Shown here: positions 17,650 to 31,663 of the stretch, one piece after another
Numbering within the stretch: the stretch's first letter is position 1
Layout: every line of letters begins with the position of its first letter
Source of the DNA: Rhodococcus sp. HM1
GTDB lineage: Bacteria > Actinomycetota > Actinomycetes > Mycobacteriales > Mycobacteriaceae
NCBI RefSeq assembly: GCF_023218075.1
Contig: NZ_JALPTB010000004.1
Span: forward strand, 1-64,000
Length of the DNA: 64,000 nucleotides
Reading direction: 5' to 3'
The notes under the pieces: model-generated
Told to the model about the DNA's origin: nothing
Seen by the model: only the letters and a program-made list of their open reading frames with translations
The model's database searches: none
Position numbers and translations under genes: made by a program

Positions 17650-17760
17650 ATGACCGGACTCGGAGTGCGACTCGTGGCTCGCCGCCACGTCGACTTCAAG
17701 CGCGTCTGCGCGTCCTGCTGTCAGCCTTGTGCCGTCTGTTCCTGCGCCGACTGTCGGTAG
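17650..17760 (+). CDS. Cys-rich leader peptide of the sirA-cysHDN-sirB operon
   Basis: A 36-codon frame too short for routine gene calling. It carries seven Cys codons (20, 23, 24, 27, 30, 32, 35) in its last 17 codons, including a Cys-Cys pair, and ends Cys-Arg-stop. The N-terminal half is Arg-rich. An in-frame ATG at 17641 also exists, but 17650 fits a leaderless start. It lies 136 bases before sirA, with inverted repeats between. A leaderless polycysteine sORF acting as a cysteine-responsive attenuator upstream of sulfite reductase genes is known in Mycobacterium smegmatis; position and composition here match. The peptide is probably only a sensor. Confidence 0.8.
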   Translation: MTGLGVRLVARRHVDFKRVCASCCQPCAVCSCADCR

Positions 17761-19618: not shown

Positions 19619-20340
19619 CCACCACAGAGACCACCGAGGACCTTCGAATTCTCGCCGCGCAGGGGGCAGCGAGCCTCGAAGGCGCCTCGGCACTGGAATT
19701 GCTGCAATGGACCGAGGAGACCTTCGGTTCCGCAGTGAGCGGCGACCGCAGCGGCTACGTCGTCGCGTCGAACATGCAGGACGGGGTGCTCGTGCATCTC
19801 GCCGCGCAGGTGCGGCCGGGCGTGGACGTGCTGTTCCTCGACACCGGGTACCACTTCGCCGAGACGCTCGGCACCCGGGACGCCGTCACCCAGGTGTACG
19901 GGGTGAATCTCGTCGAGGCGAAGGCGGCGCACTCGGTGGCCGAGCAGGACGAGTTGCTCGGCAAGGATCTGTTCGCGCGTGATCCGAACGAGTGCTGCCG
20001 GTTGCGGAAGGTGGTGCCGCTGAAGGAAACCCTGAAGGGTTACCGCGCGTGGGTCACCGGCATCCGCCGGGTCGAGGCCCCGACTCGGGCCAACGCGCCG
20101 CTCGTCTCGTTCGACGAGGCGTTCGGGTTGGTGAAGATCAACCCGATCGCCGCGTGGTCGGACGAGGACATGCAGAACTACATCGACGAGCACGGGATTC
20201 TCGTCAATCCCCTGGTCGACGAGGGCTATCCGTCCATCGGATGCGCCCCCTGCACCGTCAAACCACTTCCCGGAGCCGATCCGCGCAGCGGACGGTGGGC
20301 CGGCCGAGCCAAGACCGAATGCGGGTTGCACTCCTCATGA
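19615..20340 (+). CDS. cysH: adenylyl-sulfate (APS) reductase CysH
   Basis: Reduces APS to sulfite and AMP with thioredoxin. The 241-residue protein has the iron-sulfur cysteines C127-C128 and C210/C213, diagnostic of the [4Fe-4S] APS-reducing type, and the catalytic ECGLH C-terminus (C236). The absence of an APS kinase domain in the downstream cysN agrees with direct APS reduction. It overlaps sirA and cysD by ATGA, implying translational coupling. Confidence 0.96.
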   Translation: MTTTETTEDLRILAAQGAASLEGASALELLQWTEETFGSAVSGDRSGYVVASNMQDGVLVHLAAQVRPGVDVLFLDTGYHFAETLGTRDAVTQVYGVNLVEAKAAHSVAEQDELLGKDLFARDPNECCRLRKVVPLKETLKGYRAWVTGIRRVEAPTRANAPLVSFDEAFGLVKINPIAAWSDEDMQNYIDEHGILVNPLVDEGYPSIGCAPCTVKPLPGADPRSGRWAGRAKTECGLHSS

Positions 20341-21281
20341 CACTCATCGACACGAACCTTTCGGAATCCCGAATCAAGTTGGACGGCAACAAGTTCGACA
20401 CTCTCGACGCGCTCGAGTCGGAGGCGATCCACGTCTTCCGTGAGGTCGCCGGCGAGTTCGAACGTCCAGTGATCCTGTTCTCCGGCGGCAAGGACTCGAC
20501 GGTGCTGCTGCACCTCGCGCTCAAGGCCTTCTGGCCCGCGCCGCTGCCGTTCGCGCTGCTGCACGTCGACACGGGACACAACCTGCCCGAGGTTCTGGCC
20601 TTCCGCGACCACGTCGTCGAGAAGTACAACCTGCGCCTGCACGTCGCGAAGGTCGAGGACTACCTCGCCGACGGCCGCCTCACCGAGCGGCCCGACGGCA
20701 TCCGCAACCCGCTGCAGACCGTTCCGCTGCTCGACGCCATCTCCGAGAACCGCTTCGACGCGGTGTTCGGCGGCGGCCGCCGCGACGAGGAACGCGCCCG
20801 CGCCAAGGAGCGGATCTTCTCGCTGCGCAACGCATTCGGGCAGTGGGATCCGAAGCGTCAGCGTCCCGAGCTGTGGAACCTGTACAACGGCAAACACGCC
20901 CCCGGCGAGCACGTCCGGGTGTTCCCGCTCAGCAACTTCACCGAACTCGACATCTGGCGGTACATCGCCCGCGACGACGTCGAGCTCGCGAGCATCTACT
21001 ACGCGCACCAGCGTCCGGTGTACCGGCGCGACGGCATGTGGATGACCCCCGGCGTGTGGGGCGGCCCCGCCGAGGGCGAGGAACTCGAGACCCGTTCGGT
21101 GCGGTACCGCACCGTCGGCGACGGTTCCACCACCGGCGCGATCCTGTCCGAGGCCTCGACCAACGAGGAGATCCTCGCCGAGGTCGCCGCCTCCCGCCTG
21201 ACCGAGCGCGGTGCGACCCGCGGTGACGACCGAGTTTCCGAAGCGGCCATGGAAGACCGCAAGCGAGAGGGCTATTTCTGA
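20337..21281 (+). CDS. cysD: sulfate adenylyltransferase subunit 2 CysD
   Basis: Catalytic subunit of ATP sulfurylase, forming APS from ATP and sulfate. The 314-residue protein has the PP-loop SGGKDS (49-54) and conserved GGGRRDEERARAKER and GKHAPGEHVRVFPLSNFTELD segments. ATG at 20337 overlaps the cysH stop. Works as a heterodimer with CysN, encoded two bases downstream. Confidence 0.96.
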   Translation: MTLIDTNLSESRIKLDGNKFDTLDALESEAIHVFREVAGEFERPVILFSGGKDSTVLLHLALKAFWPAPLPFALLHVDTGHNLPEVLAFRDHVVEKYNLRLHVAKVEDYLADGRLTERPDGIRNPLQTVPLLDAISENRFDAVFGGGRRDEERARAKERIFSLRNAFGQWDPKRQRPELWNLYNGKHAPGEHVRVFPLSNFTELDIWRYIARDDVELASIYYAHQRPVYRRDGMWMTPGVWGGPAEGEELETRSVRYRTVGDGSTTGAILSEASTNEEILAEVAASRLTERGATRGDDRVSEAAMEDRKREGYF

Positions 21282-21283
21282 TC

Positions 21284-22585
21284 ATGAGCGACCTGCTTCG
21301 ACTCGCTACCGCGGGCAGCGTCGACGACGGCAAGTCCACCCTGGTGGGCCGCCTGCTGTACGACACCAAGTCCGTCCTGGCCGACCAGATCGACGCGGTC
21401 ACCCGCGCGTCGGTCGACAAGGGCCTCGACACCCCCGACCTGTCTCTGCTCGTCGACGGCCTGCGCGCCGAACGCGAACAGGGCATCACCATCGACGTCG
21501 CCTACCGGTACTTCGCGACCCCGAAGCGCAGCTTCGTGCTCGCGGACACCCCGGGCCACGTCCAGTACACCCGCAACACCGTCTCCGGCGCGTCCACCGC
21601 GCAGCTCGTGGTGCTGCTCGTCGACGCCCGCAAGGGTGTGATCTCGCAGACCCGCAAGCACGCCGCCGTCCTCGCGCTGCTCGGTGTGCCGAAGCTGGTG
21701 CTCGCGGTGAACAAGATCGACCTCGTCGAGGATCCGGCGACGGTGTTCGCGCAGATCTCCGCCGAGTTCAACGAGCTGACCTCGTCGCTGGGCTGGGCGC
21801 CCGAGGACGTGCAGGAGATCCCGGTCTCCGCACTGCACGGCGACAACGTCGCGACCCGCTCGGAGAACACCCCGTACTACGACGGCCCGACGCTCATCGA
21901 GCACCTCGAGTCCGTCCCCGTCGACGCCGACGTGCACGGCCGTCACGAGTCCGGCCTGCGCTTCGCGGTCCAGTACGTGATCCGCCCCCGCACCGCCGAG
22001 TACCCCGACTACCGCGGCTACGCCGGGCAGATCGCGTCCGGTTCGGTGCGTCCCGGCGACGAGGTCGTCGTGCTGCCCTCGGGCATCCGCACCACCGTCG
22101 AGCGCATCGATACCGCGGACGGCGAACTCGACGTCGCGTACGCGGGTCGCTCGGTCACGCTGATCCTGGCCGACGACGTCGACATCTCCCGCGGTGACCT
22201 CATCGCGTCTCCCGAGAAGGCACCCGAGCCGCTCGGCGAGTTCGAGGCGACCGTGTGCTGGCTCGCCGAGAAGCCGCTGCGCCCCGGCGCCCGGCTGCTG
22301 CTCAAGCACGGCACCCGCACGACCCAGGCCATCGTCGGCGCGCTCGAGGAGCGTTTCGACGAGCAGAACCTGACGTCGATCCCCCACCCGGACACGGTGG
22401 AGCTCAACGAGATCGCCCGCATCTCGGTGCGCGTCGCGGAGCCGATCCCGGCCGACGACTACACCGTGAACCGCCGCACCGGCAGCTTCCTGCTCATCGA
22501 TCCGGCGGGTGGCAACACGCTCGCCGCCGGCCTGGTGGGCAACGGTCTGGCTCAGATCGAGCTCGGGGAATCCGTCCCGGCATGA
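21284..22585 (+). CDS. cysN: sulfate adenylyltransferase subunit 1 CysN (GTPase)
   Basis: Elongation-factor-like GTPase that drives APS synthesis by CysD. The 433-residue protein has G1 GSVDDGKST (11-19), DTPGH and NKID motifs and EF-Tu-like domains 2 and 3. It ends without the C-terminal APS kinase (CysC) found in mycobacterial CysNC fusions, so PAPS is not made by this operon. Its stop overlaps the sirB ATG (ATGA). Confidence 0.96.
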   Translation: MSDLLRLATAGSVDDGKSTLVGRLLYDTKSVLADQIDAVTRASVDKGLDTPDLSLLVDGLRAEREQGITIDVAYRYFATPKRSFVLADTPGHVQYTRNTVSGASTAQLVVLLVDARKGVISQTRKHAAVLALLGVPKLVLAVNKIDLVEDPATVFAQISAEFNELTSSLGWAPEDVQEIPVSALHGDNVATRSENTPYYDGPTLIEHLESVPVDADVHGRHESGLRFAVQYVIRPRTAEYPDYRGYAGQIASGSVRPGDEVVVLPSGIRTTVERIDTADGELDVAYAGRSVTLILADDVDISRGDLIASPEKAPEPLGEFEATVCWLAEKPLRPGARLLLKHGTRTTQAIVGALEERFDEQNLTSIPHPDTVELNEIARISVRVAEPIPADDYTVNRRTGSFLLIDPAGGNTLAAGLVGNGLAQIELGESVPA

Positions 22586-23337
22586 TCCCGGTGATCGCCG
22601 TCGCGCACGGCAGCCGTGACCCGCGCTCCGCGCAGGCCATGGCTGCCGCGCTCACGGCGTTGCGGGCGCGACGACCCGGCTGGTCCGTGCGCCTGGCGTT
22701 CCTGGATCTCAACGCGCCCTCGGTGCGGCAGGCCCTCGACGCCGTCGCCGCCGAGGGGCATCGGCGCGTGGTCGTCGTTCCGCTGTTGCTGGGCAGCGCA
22801 TTCCACGCGCGCGTGGATCTGCCCGGTATCCTCGCCGACGCCCGCGTCCGGCACCCCCGTCTCGATGTGGTGTGCACCGACGTCCTCGGCGCCGACCGTC
22901 TGCTGACCGCGGCGGCACGGGACCACGTGGCCGCGACCGGCGTCTCGCGCCTCGACCCGTCCGTGGGAATCGCGATGTGCGCGGTCGGTTCCCGGCGACC
23001 CGGCGCCGACGCGGCAACCGCCGCCGTCGCGCCACGACTGCTCGACGGCACCTCGTGGACCCACGTGCGCGCATGCTTCGCGACGTCGGCCCCCGGTGTC
23101 GTCGACGCGCTCGCCGAACTCCGCGAGGCCGGTGCCCGCCGGCTGGTCGTCGCGCCGTGGCTGCTCGCTCCCGGTCTCCTGTGGGACCGCGCCTGCGACG
23201 CCGCGCGGTCCGTCTTCCCCGACGTCCGGTTCGCCGCTCCCCTCGCCACCGGCGACGCCGTCGGATTCCTCGTCGAGCGCCGGTACTACGAGGCCCTCGC
23301 GGACACCGAGCGCACCCGGGTGCTGCGCAGCGCCTGA
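22582..23337 (+). CDS. sirB: sirohydrochlorin ferrochelatase (SirB/CbiX family)
   Basis: A 251-residue CbiX-type chelatase with two half-domains. The metal-binding/catalytic histidines are H9 (VAHGSRDP) and H75 (GSAFHARVD). Placed at the end of the sulfite reductase operon, it most likely inserts iron into sirohydrochlorin to make the siroheme needed by SirA; the mycobacterial counterpart (Rv2393) has the same context. Family members can also act in cobalamin synthesis, which this context does not favour. Confidence 0.9.
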   Translation: MIPVIAVAHGSRDPRSAQAMAAALTALRARRPGWSVRLAFLDLNAPSVRQALDAVAAEGHRRVVVVPLLLGSAFHARVDLPGILADARVRHPRLDVVCTDVLGADRLLTAAARDHVAATGVSRLDPSVGIAMCAVGSRRPGADAATAAVAPRLLDGTSWTHVRACFATSAPGVVDALAELREAGARRLVVAPWLLAPGLLWDRACDAARSVFPDVRFAAPLATGDAVGFLVERRYYEALADTERTRVLRSA

Positions 23338-23429
23338 GCCCGCGCGGCAGCGTGTCGTTCTACCCTGGTTCATCTGCAACGGTTACAACGGATGCCGTTC
23401 CCCGTTGCACCGAGGACCAGGAGACTCCC

Positions 23430-24320
23430 GTGCAGAGCGAATTGCGCCACTACATCGACCGGCTCCGCACCGAGGGGTTCTCCGTGCGCGACGACCACGG
23501 CGAAGACCCCGATCTCATCGACATCGACGGCCGCGCCGTCGACACCTGGCGGGAGAACTACCCGTACGACCACCGCATGGACCGCGCGACGTACGAGGTC
23601 GAGAAGTACCTGCTGCAGATCGAGCTGCTGAAGTTCCAGTCCTGGGCGCTCGAGAACGGTTCCAAGCACATCATCGTGTTCGAAGGTCGTGACGCCGCCG
23701 GCAAGGGCGGCACGATCAAACGGTTCCAGGAGTACATCAACGTGCGGCACGCCCGGGTGGTCGCGCTGAGCAAACCGTCCGAACGCGAGAGCGGACAGTG
23801 GTACCTGCAGCGGTACATCGAGCACTTCCCCACGGCCGGTGAGCTGGTGATGTTCGACCGGTCCTGGTACAACCGCGCGGGTGTGGAACGGGTGATGGGC
23901 TTCTGCACCGACGACGAGTACGAGCGCTTCATGACGCAGGTGCCGCTCTTCGAGCAGCTGATCATCGACGCCGGGATCTCCCTGACCAAGTTCTGGTTCT
24001 CGGTGACCCGCAACGAGCAGCGCACCCGGTTCGCAATCCGCCAGCTCGATCCGGTCCGCCGCTGGAAGCTGTCGAACATGGACCTCGAGTCACTGGACAA
24101 GTGGGACAGGTACACCGCGGCGAAGGAGGAGATGTTCCGCCGGACGGACACCGACCACGCGCCGTGGACCACGATCAAATCCAACGACAAGAAGCGCGCC
24201 CGCATCAACGCGATGCGGCACTTCCTGAACAGGTTCGACTACGACGACAAGGACCGGCAGGTGGTGTTTGACCCCGACCCGAAGATCGTGCAACGCGGAA
24301 AGCACGCCGTCGGAGACTGA
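23430..24320 (+). CDS. ppk2: polyphosphate kinase 2
   Basis: Uses polyphosphate to phosphorylate nucleotides (or the reverse). The 296-residue protein has Walker A GRDAAGKGG (86-94), Walker B FDRSWYNR (142-149) and the class-I PPK2 lid region. The start is GTG at 23430, with AGGAG six bases upstream; no ATG is suitable. It is separated from sirB by 92 bases containing TACCCT near 23361 as a possible -10, so it may be a separate unit. The following stress-protein gene has its own ribosome site. Confidence 0.93.
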   Translation: MQSELRHYIDRLRTEGFSVRDDHGEDPDLIDIDGRAVDTWRENYPYDHRMDRATYEVEKYLLQIELLKFQSWALENGSKHIIVFEGRDAAGKGGTIKRFQEYINVRHARVVALSKPSERESGQWYLQRYIEHFPTAGELVMFDRSWYNRAGVERVMGFCTDDEYERFMTQVPLFEQLIIDAGISLTKFWFSVTRNEQRTRFAIRQLDPVRRWKLSNMDLESLDKWDRYTAAKEEMFRRTDTDHAPWTTIKSNDKKRARINAMRHFLNRFDYDDKDRQVVFDPDPKIVQRGKHAVGD

Positions 24321-24396
24321 TCCGCCTCGCGTGCGGAATGCTGACAAGATCGTGCGATCTGGCTCACACTGGATGGGAGTCCAAGGAGTCACCACC

Positions 24397-25245
24397 ATGA
24401 GCACAGCATCGATCAGACGCGGAATCGTGGCGGGCATCGACGGATCGGACAGCGCGCTGGGTGCCGCGCGCTGGGCGGCGTCCGTCGCGCAACGGTTCGG
24501 CGAGCCTCTCCACCTGCTCCATGTGCAACCGAACGGATCCGGGGGCGACTACGGCGACCCCGAAGGACTCCTCGACGCCGCCGAGACCGCGGTGCGGGCC
24601 GGACCGGGTGGGGTCGAGATCGAACGCGACATCGAACACGGCACACCGCAGAAGGTGCTGGTCGAGAAGTCCGGAACGGCCCGGATGCTCGTGCTCGGTC
24701 ACCTGACTACCACCGAGTGGCAGTCGATGTTCCACGGCTCCGACGTCGTGTACACGACCAATCACGCGAAGTGCCCGGTTGTGTCGTGGCGGGGCGAACC
24801 GCCCCCCGAGGCGGTCAACGGCCGTCCGGTGGCCGTCGGGGTCGACGGCAGTGAACTCAGCGCGAAGGCGATCGAGCACGCCTTCGAGTTCGCGGCGTTC
24901 GTCGGCGCCCCTCTGGTCGCCGTCCACAGCTGGACCGAGCAGTCGACCCTCACCTACGGGGAGGGTTCCCGGTTCATCGACTGGGACGACTACGTGAAAC
25001 AGCAGACCGCGCTGGTGGCCGAGAGCCTCGCCGGATGGCGGAGCCGCTATCCGGACGTCGAGGTCACGCACAGCGTCGAGCGCGGCAAGCCGGAGGAGGC
25101 GCTGCTCGAGCATTCCGCGCGGTCGCAGCTGGTCGTCGTCGGCAGCCACGGCCGCAGCCCGATGACCGCCGCGGTGCTCGGATCCACCAGCCAGTCGCTG
25201 CTGCATCACGCCCGGTGCCCGGTCCTGGTCGCCCGCGAGAACTGA
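24397..25245 (+). CDS. tandem universal stress protein
   Basis: A 282-residue protein with two UspA domains (about 8-130 and 144-280). The second has an intact ATP-binding motif G249-xx-G252-x9-G262-S263; the first is degenerate at the corresponding place (GHLTTTEWQSMFHGS), so only one nucleotide site is likely. Start chosen for AAGGAG eight bases upstream. Neighbouring ppk2 suggests a common role in stress or dormancy; that is inference. Convergent with cysA, 19 bases apart, with no visible terminator. Confidence 0.9.
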   Translation: MSTASIRRGIVAGIDGSDSALGAARWAASVAQRFGEPLHLLHVQPNGSGGDYGDPEGLLDAAETAVRAGPGGVEIERDIEHGTPQKVLVEKSGTARMLVLGHLTTTEWQSMFHGSDVVYTTNHAKCPVVSWRGEPPPEAVNGRPVAVGVDGSELSAKAIEHAFEFAAFVGAPLVAVHSWTEQSTLTYGEGSRFIDWDDYVKQQTALVAESLAGWRSRYPDVEVTHSVERGKPEEALLEHSARSQLVVVGSHGRSPMTAAVLGSTSQSLLHHARCPVLVAREN

Positions 25246-25264
25246 CCGGACCGGGCGGCGATCG

Positions 25265-26275
25265 TCAGACGCCGGTCACCACGACCTCGTCGAGGGCGGG
25301 CGGCCGGGTGGCGCGGGCGTAGACGGTCTCCCCCGGACGCAGCCCCAGGGCCTGCGCGTCGCCGCGCGTGACCTGCGCGGTGAACGATTCGCCGGTGGCT
25401 TCGTTGTGCAGCTCCACCCGCACCTCGAATCCGAGGTGCACGACCCGTTCGACAGTCGCGCGGGTGATCCCCAGCGACTCGGCGGTGCCCTCGCTCCGAG
25501 CCTCGGCGAGTTCCGGGGTGCGACCGAGCCGGATGTCGTGCGGCCGCACCAGCTGCCCGTTGAGCTTGGAGACGCTGCCGAGGAACGACATCACGAAGTC
25601 GTTGTCGGGGCGATCGTAGAGATCCTCGGGCGTCCCGACCTGCTCGATCCGGCCACGGTTGAGGACCGCGATCCGGTCGGCGATGTCGAGCGCTTCCTCC
25701 TGGTCGTGGGTGACCAGCACGGTCGTCACGTGCACCTCGTCGTGCAGCCGGCGCAGCCAGGTGCGCAGATCGGCGCGGACCTTCGCGTCCAGCGCGCCGA
25801 ACGGCTCGTCGAGCAGCAGCACCTGCGGGTCGACGGCGAGCGCGCGGGCCAGGGCCATACGCTGACGCTGACCACCGGACAGCTGCGCCGGGTAGCGCTG
25901 CTGGAATCCGTCGAGCCCGACGATTTCGAGCAGCTCCCCCACCTTCTTGTCGATCTCGGCCTTCGGGCGCTTGCGGATCTTCAGGCCGAACGCGACGTTC
26001 TCCCGCACGGTCATGTGCTTGAACGCGGCGTAGTGCTGGAACACGAACCCGATGTCGCGCTTCTGCGGCGTCACGTCGGTGACGTCCTTGCCCGCGATGT
26101 GCACGGTGCCGGAGTCGAGGGTCTCGAGACCCGCGATCGACCGCAGCAACGTCGACTTGCCGGAGCCGGACGGGCCGAGCAGCGCGGTCAGCGAACCGGA
26201 GGGAATCTCGATGTCGACGTTGTCGAGCGCCGCGAAATCCCCGTAGTTCTTGCGGGCCCCGGTGACGGTGATCAT
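25265..26275 (-). CDS. cysA: sulfate/thiosulfate ABC transporter ATP-binding protein CysA
   Basis: ATPase that powers sulfate import. The 336-residue protein has Walker [10 protein letters not shown] (34-42), signature LSGGQ (132-136), Walker B VLLLDEP (152-158), and a C-terminal TOBE-like domain. Its ATG overlaps the cysW stop (ATGA). Last gene of subI-cysT-cysW-cysA, the same order as in M. tuberculosis. Confidence 0.95.
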
Positions 26276-27081
26276 TTGTCGGCACTCCTCTTGCGGTCGA
26301 GCAGGGTCATCAGCAGCAGCACGAGCACGGCGATGGCCATGAGCAGGGTCGCGGCACTGTAGGCACCGAAGGTGTTGTGGTCATCGATGTACCGGGCGTG
26401 CACCAGCAGCGTCAACGTCTGGGAGACACCGGGGAACCCGGACGACACCATGATGACCGCACCGAATTCGCCGAGTGCGCGGGCGACGGTGAGCACGATG
26501 CCGTAGGTCAGGCCCCAGCGGATGGCCGGCAGCGTGATCCGCCAGAACGTCTGCCACGCGTTCGCACCGAGGGTGGCGGCGGCCTGTTCCTGTTCCTCGC
26601 CGATCTCGTGCAGGACCGGTTCGACCTCCCGCACCACGAACGGCAACGTCACGAAGATCGTGGCGATCACCATGCCGGGCAGGCCGAAGATCACCTTGAG
26701 TCCGAGGGACTCGAGGCCGCCGAACCAGCCGCCGGCGCCCCACAACATGATCAGGGCGACACCGACCACGATCGGTGACACCGCGAACGGCAGGTCCACG
26801 ACCGACTGCAGCAGACCGCGACCCGGGAAGCGGCCGCGCACGAGCGCGAGCGCGACGACGATGCCGAAGACGACGTTGAGCGGCACCACGATCGCGACGA
26901 TGAGCAGCGACAGGTTCAGTGCCGAGATCGCGGCCGGCGTGCTGATCGACTCGACGAACGCCATGATGCCGTTCTCGAACGTGCGGTACAGGATGACGCC
27001 GATCGGCACGAGCAACAGGAAGAAGAGGTAACCCAGCGCGACGGTGCGCAGGGAGATCCGGGTGAACGCGGAGAGTTTCAC
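26272..27081 (-). CDS. cysW: sulfate ABC transporter permease CysW
   Basis: A 269-residue inner-membrane permease with six predicted transmembrane segments and the EAA loop ([17 protein letters not shown]) that contacts CysA. GTG start overlapping the cysT stop (GTGA); the open frame upstream of it belongs to cysT sequence read in another frame. Pairs with CysT to form the channel. Confidence 0.94.
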
Positions 27082-27953
27082 GCGTCGTTCTCCTCTCGGC
27101 GCCGGCCGCGGTTCGCGACGACCCGCAGCACGAACAGCGCGACGAACGCGATGAACAGCAGAGCGACCGACACGGCGGCGGCGTTGACCGGCCGGTCGAT
27201 CTCGATCTGCTGCTGGATGTACTGCGACGCCATCTGCGTCTTGTACGGGATGTTGCCGCCGATGAGCACGATCGAGCCGTATTCGCCGATGGCGCGGGCG
27301 AATGCGAGACCGGCACCGCCGAGGATGGCGGGCCCGAGGGTCGGCAGGACGACGGAACGGAAGATGGTGAAGTTGTCGGCACCGAGCGACGCCGCCGCCT
27401 CCTCGACCTCCCGATCGGTTTCGAGCAGCACCGGTTGCACGGCCCGGACCACGAACGGCAGCGTCACGAACGCGAGCGCGATGATCAGACCGGGCTGGGT
27501 TGCGTTCAGGTGCAGGCCGATCGGGCTCATCGGCCCGTACAGCGACAGCAGCACGATGCTGGCGACGATCGTGGGCAGCGCGAACGGCAGGTCGATCAGC
27601 GCGTTGACGACCTTCTTGCCCGGGAACTCGTCGCGCACCAGCACCCAGGCGATGAGGGTTCCCATCACCGCGTTGATCAACGCGACGATCACCGACACGA
27701 CGACGGTGATCCGCAGCGTGGCCAGCGCGGCCGGGGCGGTGAGAGCGTCGACGAAGCCGGACAGCCCGTCGGCGAACGCGTGGGTGGTCAGTGCCGCGAG
27801 CGGCAGCAGGACGATGATGCTCAGCCACAGGGTGGCGACGCCGACGCCGAGTGGGCCGACCGTTCCGGTGAAGGCGAACAGCGGCTTCCGGCGGCGCGCC
27901 ACCGGGGCGGGAGCTGCTGCTCCCGCCCCGGGGCGTGTCTCGGTGGTACTCAC
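27078..27953 (-). CDS. cysT: sulfate ABC transporter permease CysT
   Basis: A 291-residue permease with six transmembrane segments after a cytoplasmic Pro/Ala-rich N-terminus, and the EAA motif EVEEAAASLGADNFTIF. It begins nine bases after the subI stop and overlaps cysW. Confidence 0.94.
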   Translation of the reverse strand: MSTTETRPGAGAAAPAPVARRRKPLFAFTGTVGPLGVGVATLWLSIIVLLPLAALTTHAFADGLSGFVDALTAPAALATLRITVVVSVIVALINAVMGTLIAWVLVRDEFPGKKVVNALIDLPFALPTIVASIVLLSLYGPMSPIGLHLNATQPGLIIALAFVTLPFVVRAVQPVLLETDREVEEAAASLGADNFTIFRSVVLPTLGPAILGGAGLAFARAIGEYGSIVLIGGNIPYKTQMASQYIQQQIEIDRPVNAAAVSVALLFIAFVALFVLRVVANRGRRREENDA

Positions 27954-27962
27954 GGAACGGGC

Positions 27963-28991
27963 CTACTTCGTGGCGTTGTCGTAGATCACGGCGATCGAGC
28001 CGGTGCCCTGCTTGAACAGGTCGGCGTCGACGGCAGACCAGCCGCCGAGGTCTGCGATGGTCCACAGCTTCTGCGGCTGCGGGAAGTCGGCCGCAAACTC
28101 CTCGGCGACGGCCGGGTCGACCGGACGGAATCCGGCCTGCGCCCACAGGCGCTGCGCCTCGGTGGTGTACAGGTAGTCGTTGAACGCCTGGGCCTTGTCC
28201 GCGTTCGGGGAGTTCGTCAGCACCGCGGCCGGGTTCTCGATCTTGAACGTGACCGGCGGGGTGACGTGCTCGACGGGGTCCCCGTTGCGTTCGGCGAACA
28301 GGGCCTCGTTCTCGTAGCTGAGCAGAACGTCACCGGAGCCCTGCAGGAACGCCTCGGTCGCTTCGCGGCCGGACTTCGGCTGGATCTTGACGTGCTCGGT
28401 CACGAGCTGGTTGACGAAGTCCAGGCCGGCCTGGGGGTTGGCCCCGCCCTCGCTCTTCGCGGCGTACGGCGCGAGCAGGTTCCACTTGGCCGATCCCGAG
28501 CTGAACGGATTGGGGGTCACGACCTCGAGACCCGGCTGGAGCAGGTCGTCCCAGTCCTGGATGTTCTTCGGGTTGCCCTCGCGGACCACGATCGTCACGA
28601 CGGAGCCGAAGGGAATGCCGTTGTAGGCACCGGTGTTCCAGTCCGCGTCGACGAGACCCGCGTCGACGAGGCGGGTGATGTCGGGTTCGACGGAGAAGTT
28701 GACGAAGTCGGCGGCCGCACCGTCCTTGACCTTGCGCGACTGGTCGCCGGAGGCGCCGTAGGACTGCTGGAAGGCAACGCCCTCGCCCTCTTCGGTGGCG
28801 TTGAATGCGGGGATGATCAGGTCGAAGCCGGGCTTCGGGACCGCGTAGGCGTACAGGTTGACGGTGCCGCCGGAGCCGTCCGCCACGCTGTCCTCACCGA
28901 CGGTGTCGCTCGCGCCGCCCGCGCAAGCGGACAGCGCGGTCGCGGTGGCTGCCGCGAGGGCCGCGAACACGAGGGCAGAACGTTTCTTCAT
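27963..28991 (-). CDS. subI: sulfate-binding lipoprotein SubI
   Basis: Extracytoplasmic sulfate receptor of the CysTWA importer. The 342-residue precursor has a lipoprotein signal with lipobox LSAC (C23), followed by the sulfate/thiosulfate-binding domain with QQSYGASGDQSR and GSAKWNLLAPY segments that line the anion pocket in this family. It is the first structural gene of the operon, preceded by a 179-base leader and the Cys-Cys-ending reading frame at 29171-29263. Confidence 0.95.
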   Translation of the reverse strand: MKKRSALVFAALAAATATALSACAGGASDTVGEDSVADGSGGTVNLYAYAVPKPGFDLIIPAFNATEEGEGVAFQQSYGASGDQSRKVKDGAAADFVNFSVEPDITRLVDAGLVDADWNTGAYNGIPFGSVVTIVVREGNPKNIQDWDDLLQPGLEVVTPNPFSSGSAKWNLLAPYAAKSEGGANPQAGLDFVNQLVTEHVKIQPKSGREATEAFLQGSGDVLLSYENEALFAERNGDPVEHVTPPVTFKIENPAAVLTNSPNADKAQAFNDYLYTTEAQRLWAQAGFRPVDPAVAEEFAADFPQPQKLWTIADLGGWSAVDADLFKQGTGSIAVIYDNATK

Positions 28992-29112
28992 GGAACAGGG
29001 GCCTTCCTACAGGAGCGGTGTACGGAGGTGGTGACCCGCAGAAATCGGCACCGGAAGGCTCCGTGCGCACTGCCCGAGGCGTCCGGCGGATACCGGGGAT
29101 CGGCACACGGAA

Positions 29113-29172
29113 GATCGATCGAGATTGCCCGGAAGCCGGTGCGGCAATGCCGCGGGTCGGGAAGGATCGATC
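29113..29172 (-). promoter_or_regulatory. candidate attenuator stem-loop before subI
   Basis: Two copies of the self-complementary octamer GATCGATC (29165-29172 and 29113-29120) can pair as the outer stem. Inside, ATTGCC (29143-29148, minus strand) pairs with GGCAAT (29124-29129) around a 13-base loop. The first octamer begins within the stop codon of the leader frame, so a ribosome held at its Cys-Cys codons would cover that arm and prevent the stem. Mechanism is inference from geometry; no U-tract is present. Confidence 0.5.
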
Positions 29173-29263
29173 AGCGACAACAGCTGACGTCGGCAACCGA
29201 CAAGCTGCCGACAGCGATCAGCGCCAGCTCGTGGCGCACGCGGGGCAGTGTGGTTACGGACAC
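29171..29263 (-). CDS. short leader peptide ending Cys-Cys-Arg, subI operon
   Basis: A 30-codon GTG-initiated frame, too short for routine calling. Codons 28 and 29 are both TGT (Cys), followed by Arg and TGA. TAGAGT (29271-29276) ends exactly seven bases before the GTG, the spacing of a leaderless mRNA. Its place before a sulfate importer operon, tandem Cys codons at the very end, and stem-forming sequence starting at its stop parallel the Cys-rich leader before sirA. It is probably a cysteine sensor rather than a functional peptide. Translation has not been shown; the terminal Cys pair could be chance. Confidence 0.65.
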   Translation of the reverse strand: MSVTTLPRVRHELALIAVGSLSVADVSCCR

Positions 29264-29270
29264 GCCGGAG

Positions 29271-29276
29271 ACTCTA
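29271..29276 (-). promoter_or_regulatory. -10 box of the leaderless subI-operon transcript
   Basis: TAGAGT (minus strand) fits the TANNNT consensus, seven bases upstream of the GTG at 29263. The -35 region is weak (TCGGGC), as is common in actinobacteria. Confidence 0.55.
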
Positions 29277-29307
29277 GCAGAGCCGCCGATCATGCCCGAC
29301 CGCGCGG

Positions 29308-29385
29308 TCAGCGGGTGAGAAACCAGGCGACGACGACGATGGCGAGCAGCGCGATCAGCGCCAGGGTCACGCGTGAGCGCGGCAT
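29308..29385 (-). CDS. 25-residue single-pass membrane peptide
   Basis: ATG frame of 25 residues: a short basic N-terminus (MPRSRV), a strongly hydrophobic stretch of about 17 residues and a C-terminal Arg. It starts one base after the stop of the upstream small membrane protein gene, implying coupled translation. Unknown function; too short for homology judgement, so it may be spurious. Confidence 0.4.
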   Translation of the reverse strand: MPRSRVTLALIALLAIVVVAWFLTR

Positions 29386-29386
29386 G

Positions 29387-29608
29387 TCAGCGGTCCTTCG
29401 TCGTCGGTTCGGTCGTGGCGGGGACGGGCACATCGTGTTCGCGGCGTCCGACGGCCGCGAACACCCCTGCGAGAACGCGGTCGAGCAGCCAGGCCGCGCC
29501 GGCGCACAGCGGCACCATCACGAGCAGTACCAGTGCGGCCTGCGGCACGAAGGACAGTCCGGCGAGCCACAGCTCGAATCCGTCCCACCACGATGCCACC
29601 CGGTCCAC
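29387..29608 (-). CDS. small membrane protein (73 aa)
   Basis: 73 residues with a Trp-rich amphipathic N-terminus (WWDGFELWLAG), one or two hydrophobic segments (about 17-50) and a charged C-terminal tail. A small membrane protein gene (Rv2401A) lies in the same place between subI and trehalase in M. tuberculosis, so it is probably the counterpart. No function known. GTG start; divergent from the trehalase gene. Confidence 0.6.
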   Translation of the reverse strand: MDRVASWWDGFELWLAGLSFVPQAALVLLVMVPLCAGAAWLLDRVLAGVFAAVGRREHDVPVPATTEPTTKDR

Positions 29609-29695
29609 GCACCCACCTTAGACGGCGGGTCCACGACCACCGAATCGTCGGCCGTTCCCCGTGCAGGCGGAGCGCGCCGGACCGAGAATTGGGTG

Positions 29696-31663
29696 ATGGG
29701 AGCCACGATCGACTTCGACGACCCCGATCCCGACGACCGGCCGCCGCCGATACTCCACCGGAGCCCGTATCCGCCGATCGACGACTACGCGTTCCTGTCG
29801 GACTGCGAGACGACCTGCCTGGTCGCCCGCAACGGCGCCGTCGAGTGGATGTGCCTGCCCCGGCCGGATTCGCCGAGCGTGTTCGGTTCGATTCTCGACC
29901 GCAGCGCGGGGCATTTCCGGATCGGCCCGCACGGACACACCGTGCCCGCCGCGCGCCGCTACCTTCCCGGTGGGCTGATTCTCGAGACCACCTGGCAGAC
30001 CGAGACCGGCTGGATCGTGGTGCGCGACGCGCTGGTGATGGGTCCGTGGCACGCGGTCGACGACCGGTCGCGCACGCATCGCCGGACGCCGCCGGACTGG
30101 GATGCCGAGCACGTGTTGCTGCGCACGATCCGCTGCGTGAGCGGCACCGTGGAGTTCGAGATGAGCTGCGAGCCTGCGTTCGACTACAACCGGGAGTCCA
30201 CGGTGTGGGAGTACACCGGCAAGGTGTACGAGGAGGCGACCGCGCGCTGCCGCCCGGAAACGGCCGGTTCGCATCCGGAACTTCGCCTGACGACCGATAT
30301 GCGTCTGGGTCTCGAAGGACGTGAGGCGCGCGCTCGCACCCGGATGTACAAGGGTGACAGTGTGTTCGTGGCCCTGTCGTGGTCCGACCACCCGGCTCCG
30401 AAGACGTTCGCGGAGGCTGCCGCGAAAATGGCTGCCACCGCAGACTTCTGGCGCGAGTGGATCACCACGGGCCGATTCCCTGATCATCCGTGGCGCAGCT
30501 ATCTGCAGCGCAGTGCGCTGACGTTGAAGGGCCTGACCTACGCGCCGACCGGGGCGCTGCTCGCGGCGTCGACCACCTCGCTGCCGGAAACTCCCGGCGG
30601 TGAACGCAACTGGGACTACCGCTACGCGTGGGTGCGTGATTCGACGTTCGCTCTGTGGGGCCTGTACACGCTGGGACTCGACCGGGAGGCCGACGACTTC
30701 TTCTCGTTCATCTCCGACGCGAGTCGTGACCAGCACGGCGTTCCCCGTCCGCTCCAGGTGATGTACGGGGTCGGCGGGGAACGTACCCTCGAGGAATCCG
30801 AACTCAACCATATGTGCGGCTACGACGAGGCCAGGCCGGTGCGGATCGGCAACGGCGCCTATCACCAGTCGCAGCACGACATCTGGGGCACCATGCTCGA
30901 TTCGGTCTACCTCCACGTCAAATCCCGTGAGCACGTGCCCGATTCGCTGTGGCCGTTGCTGAAACTCCAGGTCGAGGAGGCGCTGAAACACTGGCGGGAA
31001 CCCGACCGCGGAATCTGGGAGGTCCGCGGCGAACCCCAGCACTTCGTCTCGTCGAAGGTGATGTGCTGGGTCGCCCTCGACCGCGGCGCGAAACTCGCTG
31101 CGATGCAGGGTGAGAAGAGCTACGCGATGCAGTGGCAGAAGATGGCCGACGAGATCAAGGCCGATGTCCTCGCGCACGGCGTCGACGAACGCGGGGTGTT
31201 CACCCAGCGGTACGGGCATCCGTCTCTGGATGCGTCGGCGCTGCTGATTCCACTGCTACGGTTCCTGCCCGCCGACGATCCGCGGGTCCGCGCGACGGTG
31301 CTCGCCATCGCCGACGAACTCACCGAACACGGCCTGGTGCTGCGCTACCGGGTCGAGACCACCGACGACGGTCTTGCCGGCGAGGAGGGCACCTTCACGA
31401 TCTGTTCGTTCTGGCTGGTGTCGGCACTGGTCGAGATCGGCGAGGTGGAGCGGGCCCGCGCGCTGTGCGAGCGGTTGCTCGGCTTCGCCAGCCCGCTCGA
31501 GCTCTATGCCGAGGAGATCGATCCGCACACCGGCCGTCACCTGGGCAATTTCCCGCAGGCGTTCACCCACCTGGCGCAGATCAACGCGGTGGTGCACGTC
31601 ATCCGCGCGGAGGAGCAGATCCAGACCGGCGCGTTCCACCCCGCCCATCTCCACCCGTCCTGA
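29696..31663 (+). CDS. GH15 trehalase
   Basis: Glycoside hydrolase family 15 protein, 655 residues, of the mycobacterial-type trehalase group (Rv2402-like), splitting trehalose into glucose. An N-terminal beta-rich domain (about 20-250) precedes the (alpha/alpha)6 barrel. Substrate motif NWDYRYAWVRD is present; probable catalytic acid is E442 (GIWEVRG) and base E606 or E607 (YAEEIDP). ATG at 29696; GAGAAT six bases after a plausible start region suggests possible leaderless expression. Trehalase rather than glucoamylase is inferred from synteny. Confidence 0.85.
   Translation: MGATIDFDDPDPDDRPPPILHRSPYPPIDDYAFLSDCETTCLVARNGAVEWMCLPRPDSPSVFGSILDRSAGHFRIGPHGHTVPAARRYLPGGLILETTWQTETGWIVVRDALVMGPWHAVDDRSRTHRRTPPDWDAEHVLLRTIRCVSGTVEFEMSCEPAFDYNRESTVWEYTGKVYEEATARCRPETAGSHPELRLTTDMRLGLEGREARARTRMYKGDSVFVALSWSDHPAPKTFAEAAAKMAATADFWREWITTGRFPDHPWRSYLQRSALTLKGLTYAPTGALLAASTTSLPETPGGERNWDYRYAWVRDSTFALWGLYTLGLDREADDFFSFISDASRDQHGVPRPLQVMYGVGGERTLEESELNHMCGYDEARPVRIGNGAYHQSQHDIWGTMLDSVYLHVKSREHVPDSLWPLLKLQVEEALKHWREPDRGIWEVRGEPQHFVSSKVMCWVALDRGAKLAAMQGEKSYAMQWQKMADEIKADVLAHGVDERGVFTQRYGHPSLDASALLIPLLRFLPADDPRVRATVLAIADELTEHGLVLRYRVETTDDGLAGEEGTFTICSFWLVSALVEIGEVERARALCERLLGFASPLELYAEEIDPHTGRHLGNFPQAFTHLAQINAVVHVIRAEEQIQTGAFHPAHLHPS

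Follow-up and report, generated by a model that had tools for sequence, protein, structure and literature searches.

What is the short reading frame that precedes the sulfate-importer operon of Rhodococcus sp. HM1, and how might it sense cysteine? We analysed the surrounding 64,000 nucleotides of the genome (the window), in which a first-pass annotation had picked out a GTG-initiated frame ahead of subI-cysTWA as a candidate cysteine sensor.

The frame and its promoter-like element are present letter for letter as that annotation described them, with TAGAGT seven bases ahead of the GTG and a 30-codon frame whose codons 28 and 29 are both TGT just before the stop (Table 1). TAGAGT is the core of an extended -10 element, TGCTAGAGT (29271..29279, minus strand), that lies 5' of the GTG in the sequence. 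The frame (29263-29171) is translated as MSVTTLPRVRHELALIAVGSLSVADVSCCR followed by a stop, ending Cys-Cys-Arg, and is 179 nt from subI, with cysT, cysW and cysA directly downstream. This arrangement is more than chance in the window. Any TANNNT 5-8 nt upstream was found for 13 of 3721 ATG or GTG codons in the 64-kb window. When both strands were scanned for -10-preceded frames of 10-59 aa whose last eight residues include a Cys, this leader alone emerged; the scan is blind to leaders with a different -10, such as the one near position 17650. A 41-codon frame with a hydrophobic stretch at its end (29308-29433, minus strand) lies immediately upstream of the leader promoter.

Table 1. Window positions of the leader, the spacer segments and the operon downstream
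Feature	Positions	Strand	Basis or remark
-10 core, TAGAGT	29276-29271	minus	7-nt spacer to GTG
GTG start codon	29263-29261	minus	opens 30-codon frame
Putatively leaderless GTG sORF, 30 codons, Ms4533A family Cys-rich leader peptide	29171..29263	minus	NF042937.1 match
Frame end, TGT TGT CGC TGA	29182-29171	minus	codons 28 and 29 are TGT
Sensor codon 28, TGT	29180..29182	minus	Cys TGT in 77/77 aligned leaders
Second Cys codon (codon 29), TGT	29177..29179	minus	not general; adjacent Cys in 12/77
GATCGATC octamer, two copies	29172-29165 and 29120-29113	minus	first begins in stop codon
Stem arms, ATTGCC / GGCAAT	29148-29143 / 29129-29124	minus	between octamers
Octamer-framed region	29113..29172	minus	not a conserved element
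Candidate segment A, GACCCGC	29152..29158	minus	could pair with B; same in R. zopfii (L002) and R. phenolicus (L012)
Candidate segment B, GCGGGTC	29033..29039	minus	could pair with A; A:B would cross C:Shine-Dalgarno
Candidate anti-Shine-Dalgarno segment C, GCCTTCC	29053..29059	minus	could form 7 bp with GGAAGGC
subI Shine-Dalgarno region, GGAAGGC	29001..29007	minus	sequence
subI, sulfate-binding lipoprotein	27963..28991	minus	TIGR00971 over cut-off (NCBIfam)
cysT, sulfate permease	27078..27953	minus	TIGR02139 over cut-off (NCBIfam)
cysW, sulfate permease	26272..27099	minus	TIGR02140 over cut-off (NCBIfam)
cysA, sulfate ABC ATPase	25265..26275	minus	TIGR00968 over cut-off (NCBIfam)

Judged by profile score, the leader belongs to a family that is already catalogued and is not new. 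It scored 51.2 bits against NCBIfam profile NF042937, 'Ms4533A family Cys-rich leader peptide' (cut-off 31), and a Nocardia version of the leader scored 55. We take Ms4533A to be the frame preceding MSMEG_4533, subI of M. smegmatis. The window leader resembles NF042937 members over nearly the full length of the peptide and in having Cys close to the stop, and differs in ending Cys-Cys-Arg and in a spacer RNA unlike that of genus g2, which belongs to the same family as the window organism.

The kind of mechanism has been described as well. According to the accessible parts of two papers (PMC13236596, PMC9031893, citing Canestrari 2020), Cys-codon leaders in M. smegmatis attenuate translation of downstream cysteine genes, and an excerpt of a third (PMC9094748, citing the same work) gives six Cys-codon leader frames predicted for M. 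tuberculosis. The available text of Shell et al. 2015 (PMC4633059) includes earlier examples before cysA2, Rv0485 and nirA, and that of a 2005 paper (PMC1262725) predicts Cys leaders ahead of a mycobacterial cys operon. Because NF042937 is catalogued and such a mechanism is described in these excerpts, we reject the earlier suggestion that a leader of this type may be new for subI-cysTWA. Our literature search found no paper naming Ms4533A, Ms5788A or Ms4527A, and none on a leaderless cysteine sORF before subI.

The leader frame is conserved upstream of subI in relatives. Among the best 80 of 227 loci encoding SubI relatives, alignment upstream of subI found the short frame with terminal Cys, as the first-pass annotation had anticipated, in 76; the four without it are from Phycicoccus, Ornithinibacter, Tetrasphaera and Intrasporangium. 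The nearest named relatives by SubI in these 80 loci are R. phenolicus (95%) and R. zopfii (94%); the leader also occurs in a strain of R. jostii (L008). Together with the window, the 76 loci gave 77 aligned frames, which start with GTG in 76 cases and ATG in one, and in all 77 the motif TGNTANNNT ends 6-8 nt ahead of the start. An extended -10 so placed in every leader implies that transcription would start at or adjoining 29263.

Matches extend beyond these loci. A wider family sample of 29 genomes with SubI gave a leader in 14 and none in 15 (E up to 0.01), using a profile of 29 positions that is short enough to have possibly missed some. Low-scoring matches inside long frames (e.g., L104-L108) were treated as chance. 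Matches were found in 40 of 78 genomes of genus g2 and in 57 of 121 genomes of f18/g78, a genus with large genomes. The position ahead of a sulfate-binding protein gene, which holds for the window leader, fails in the Ms4533A-family locus L102, the only f18/g78 locus scanned downstream, where the next gene encodes a family 5 solute-binding protein (PF00496) and is not subI. By eye, the gene downstream of another f18/g78 leader (L103) resembles that of L102 and is not subI. Based on the NF042937 match, the frequency of the frame and the universal extended -10, we conclude that the leader is very probably what had been proposed, a leaderless cysteine-sensing leader for subI-cysTWA and, among the Ms4533A leader peptides, the Rhodococcus-type member.

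The body of the peptide, VRHELALIAVGxLAVADIxC, is constrained in these alignments about as strongly as SubI. The pN/pS of the leader was 0.25 over codons 9-27 and 0.50 over codons 2-8 (69 distinct frames); for subI in the same loci it was 0.120/0.383. The N-terminus is the variable portion, and after the start A14, L15, I16, V18, V23, A24, D25 and C28 were invariant, and L13 nearly so, in 16 peptides selected to represent three sets, each at genus level, of which g2 is the second and f18/g78 the third. We also noticed that Leu15 is TTG in 64 of 69 distinct frames, versus 67 of 1618 subI Leu codons, and that His11 is CAT in 64 of 69 (both counts from loci L002-L081). The window departs from its relatives at both positions, with CAC at codon 11 (29233-29231) and CTG at codon 15 (29221-29219, minus strand).

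The Cys-rich end is less uniform. The 77 frames end in CR (63), CC (8), CCR (3), CRR (2) or CCCR (1), with a single Cys in 52 and adjacent Cys in 12. The pair of Cys codons had been proposed as the sensor; the pair is confined to those 12 frames, and what is conserved as the sensor is one UGU, present in all 77. The 52 single-Cys frames hint at a poor fit to a simple poly-Cys model. They also set the leader apart from the mycobacterial polycysteine leaderless attenuators, as far as these are covered in papers citing Canestrari et al. 2020 and in the accessible text of Shell et al. 2015: the short frame, the putatively leaderless start, the Cys codons ahead of the stop and the sulfur gene downstream are shared, whereas the window leader has only two Cys codons, the two TGT that form its run near the stop.

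By analogy with the leader family, the leader probably works as follows. Transcription would begin at the GTG; with no Shine-Dalgarno sequence to guide them, ribosomes would initiate at the 5' end and translate 27 codons before reaching UGU at codon 28. With Cys-tRNA plentiful, ribosomes would pass and leave, and a fold in the spacer would keep translation of subI, or transcription into it, low. With Cys-tRNA scarce, a stall on UGU would change the fold and raise subI-cysTWA, so that more sulfate would be imported for cysteine synthesis. We infer from the leader family that stalling at codon 28 raises subI-cysTWA.

Three short segments in the spacer could form such a switch: a candidate anti-Shine-Dalgarno segment, C, and two further segments, A and B, whose pairing would cross that of C (Table 1). 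All three are identical in the window, R. zopfii and R. phenolicus, and because they do not vary among these three close species there is no covariation for either A:B or C:Shine-Dalgarno. The spacer as a whole varies in length and sequence among relatives. An Rfam scan of 20000-31000 gave no match at E up to 1. For the aligned g2 leaders, RNAalifold yielded no consensus fold of use.

Simulated blocking of the sensor codon by a ribosome did not expose the subI start. We assigned subI start codons in 70 of 99 loci, removed L081 together with duplicate loci and frames that lack the motif, and folded 67 leaders. Exposure of the Shine-Dalgarno and start was unchanged by the block (mean -0.003, p 0.75), rising in 9 leaders and falling in 13, and a control block placed 70 nt downstream of it produced a larger change (+0.021, p 0.02), in statistics that, like those of the shuffle and swap tests below, ignore kinship among loci. 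Exposure rose from 0.40 to 0.49 in the window and fell in both R. zopfii and R. phenolicus. This null result is either a strike against the simple model or a limit of a crude method.

Some pairings were favoured in genus g2. Compared with shuffled spacers, pairing of the frame tail with the spacer was clear in g2 (z -2.03, n=29), where the partner segment lies some 20 nt beyond the stop. The signal was weak in f18 (-0.61, n=28) and in Nocardia (-0.50, n=35), and absent in a set of 20 from Rhodococcus and neighbouring genera (+0.51). Shine-Dalgarno-to-spacer pairing was weak or absent relative to shuffles in the three testable sets (g2 -0.50, Nocardia -0.31, Rhodococcus set +0.06). We also swapped segments among 27 of the 29 g2 leaders, leaving out the divergent L166 and L176, for ten segment pairs and without correction for multiple tests. 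These tests favoured the g2 equivalent of C:Shine-Dalgarno (long segment, none of 5000 permutations; core, p 0.007) and A:B (p 0.0036); the seven other pairs, including the C:B and A:E hairpins, were not favoured.

The spacer results also bear on whether a stalled or departing ribosome acts on transcription, through Rho-dependent termination in the spacer, and not on translation of subI. A consensus scan of 28900-29400 found no intrinsic terminator, which sets the locus apart from a trp-type attenuator, with its terminator between leader and operon, and leaves room for Rho, as does the variable spacer. An excerpt of the 2005 paper (PMC1262725) makes a weak prediction of this kind for mycobacterial cys leaders, in which no terminator hairpins are conserved. 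Against it stand the g2 anti-Shine-Dalgarno segment, which pairs more strongly in cognate than in swapped combinations, and the translational control described for M. smegmatis in the available parts of PMC13236596 and PMC9031893. We consider control through Rho unlikely.

Another proposed switch, in which a ribosome on the Cys pair would mask the first of two GATCGATC octamers that flank an ATTGCC/GGCAAT stem, is extremely improbable. Octamers and stem are all present in the window as described. However, GATCGATC occurs four times in the window versus 3.73 expected, and R. zopfii and R. phenolicus each keep a single octamer and, by eye, have lost the stem. We rejected the octamer pair and stem as a functional structure.

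The genome of the window organism probably runs a network of cysteine leaders. A search of it with the NF042934 profile found seven places on other contigs (L109-L115), four of them over the cut-off. Downstream of the six places that were scanned, open frames encode a rhodanese (L110), a flavin reductase-like protein (L112), an ABC permease (L113), a pyridine nucleotide oxidoreductase (L114), a luciferase-like monooxygenase (L115) and an SCO4226-like protein (L109). Leaders of NF042934 (annotated as a putative leader peptide), NF042933 (Ms5788A) and NF042936 (Ms4527A), several of which this genome carries, represent a sensor of the same kind, but differ in the peptide body (HVDLxRV...C) and in the genes that follow. 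Within the window, NF042936 matches 17665-17727 on the plus strand at 42.9 bits, just under its cut-off of 45. The Ms4527A-type Cys-rich leader there, MTGLGVRLVARRHVDFKRVCASCCQPCAVCSCADCR (17650-17760, plus strand), precedes a nitrite/sulfite reductase gene and is probably the first candidate cysteine sensor of the earlier annotation.

The sensor codon is fixed as UGU in the Ms4533A-family leaders read. Codon 28 was TGT in 77/77 aligned frames, 29/29 from g2 and 28/28 from f18, a total of 134/134 in best-scoring loci of related genomes, which are not independent; the motif search missed 1 of 30 g2 and 2 of 30 f18 loci. Cys codons upstream of the sensor were mostly TGC (12 TGC and 1 TGT in Nocardiaceae-type frames; 25 and 3 in f18; 12 and 1 in g2, leaving out the codon immediately before the sensor, which was TGT in 13 and TGC in 1). 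Cys codons adjoining the sensor also tended towards TGT: after it, the TGT and TGC counts were 28 and 8 in g2, 0 and 6 in f18, and, by subtraction, 10 and 3 in Nocardiaceae-type frames. The lipobox Cys of SubI was TGC in 74 of the 75 loci where it was found (of 77). Baseline TGT among Cys codons was 33/116 in f18 and 41/163 in g2, taken from the longest open frames that the f18 and g2 loci contain, some of which may not be genes. Seven genes of the window have 31 TGC and 19 TGT; TGT is thus no rarity in this genome, and the contrast is sharper across the whole set than in the window's genome.

The preference for UGU is shared by NF042934. Its aligned sensor Cys (D+9) was TGT in 60 of 61 loci, the sole exception being L197; these loci, again the best-scoring ones, comprise 29 from 11 families of the order, seven from the window's genome (three of them under the family cut-off) and 25 from seven f18/g78 genomes. 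Cys at D+2 was TGC in 23/25 and at D+7 in 15/19, and Cys at D+10 was TGT in four and TGC in one of the first 36 loci. The codons flanking this sensor vary, so no longer motif obviously accounts for its U. In the available text on the alphaproteobacterial cysS leader of Rhodobacterales, uORFC-8-2 (PMC8632094), a short frame with tandem Cys codons and predicted ribosome-mediated attenuation is described, as here, but UGC is dominant and a likely intrinsic terminator closes the consensus. We found no statement of a UGU rule in the accessible portions of the literature on cysteine leaders, attenuation and regulatory codons, including PMC13236596, PMC8632094, PMC1262725 and PMC1183508; Canestrari 2020, the main paper on these leaders, may say more.

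The fixed third base would not be expected if the peptide were itself the product, a membrane-active or protein-binding microprotein made before the sulfate importer without attenuation. Such a product would account for a peptide body constrained about like SubI, for the hydrophobic stretch LALIAVGxLAVAD and for frames with only one Cys. We nevertheless judge it improbable, given also that the frame heads the operon beside a promoter element and that its mycobacterial relatives have a reported attenuator role (accessible parts of PMC13236596 and PMC9031893). The constraint on the peptide can also be read within a cysteine-sensing leader. When codon 28 occupies the A site, the residues that stay constant would lie 3 to 15 positions back, presumably within the exit tunnel.

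We found 51 tRNA genes in the genome (assembly of 247 contigs); ARAGORN gives one tRNA-Cys, with anticodon GCA. An excerpt of PMC1183508 describes selective charging of isoacceptors as an established explanation for the choice of a regulatory codon. Such charging has no effect where both codons are read by one tRNA, and we set it aside for UGU in view of the single tRNA-Cys identified in the 247-contig assembly. A fixed UGU with a single tRNA-Cys calls for another reason: wobble kinetics, an RNA constraint or the nascent peptide. Tentatively, and with less than even confidence, we suggest that in actinobacterial cysteine leaders the sensor is fixed as UGU, read only through G-U wobble by tRNA-Cys(GCA), behind a conserved, tunnel-filling peptide, making the leader a hybrid of attenuator and arrest peptide. 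With the same reserve, the nascent peptide (about residues -18 to -3) might prime the ribosome so that one slow codon suffices as a cysteine sensor. The UGU rule is a count in two leader families; wobble and peptide arrest are causes that we infer for it.

The leader itself is a case of cysteine control that is already catalogued, here in a Rhodococcus-type genome; what could matter is the rule for a synonymous codon at the sensor.
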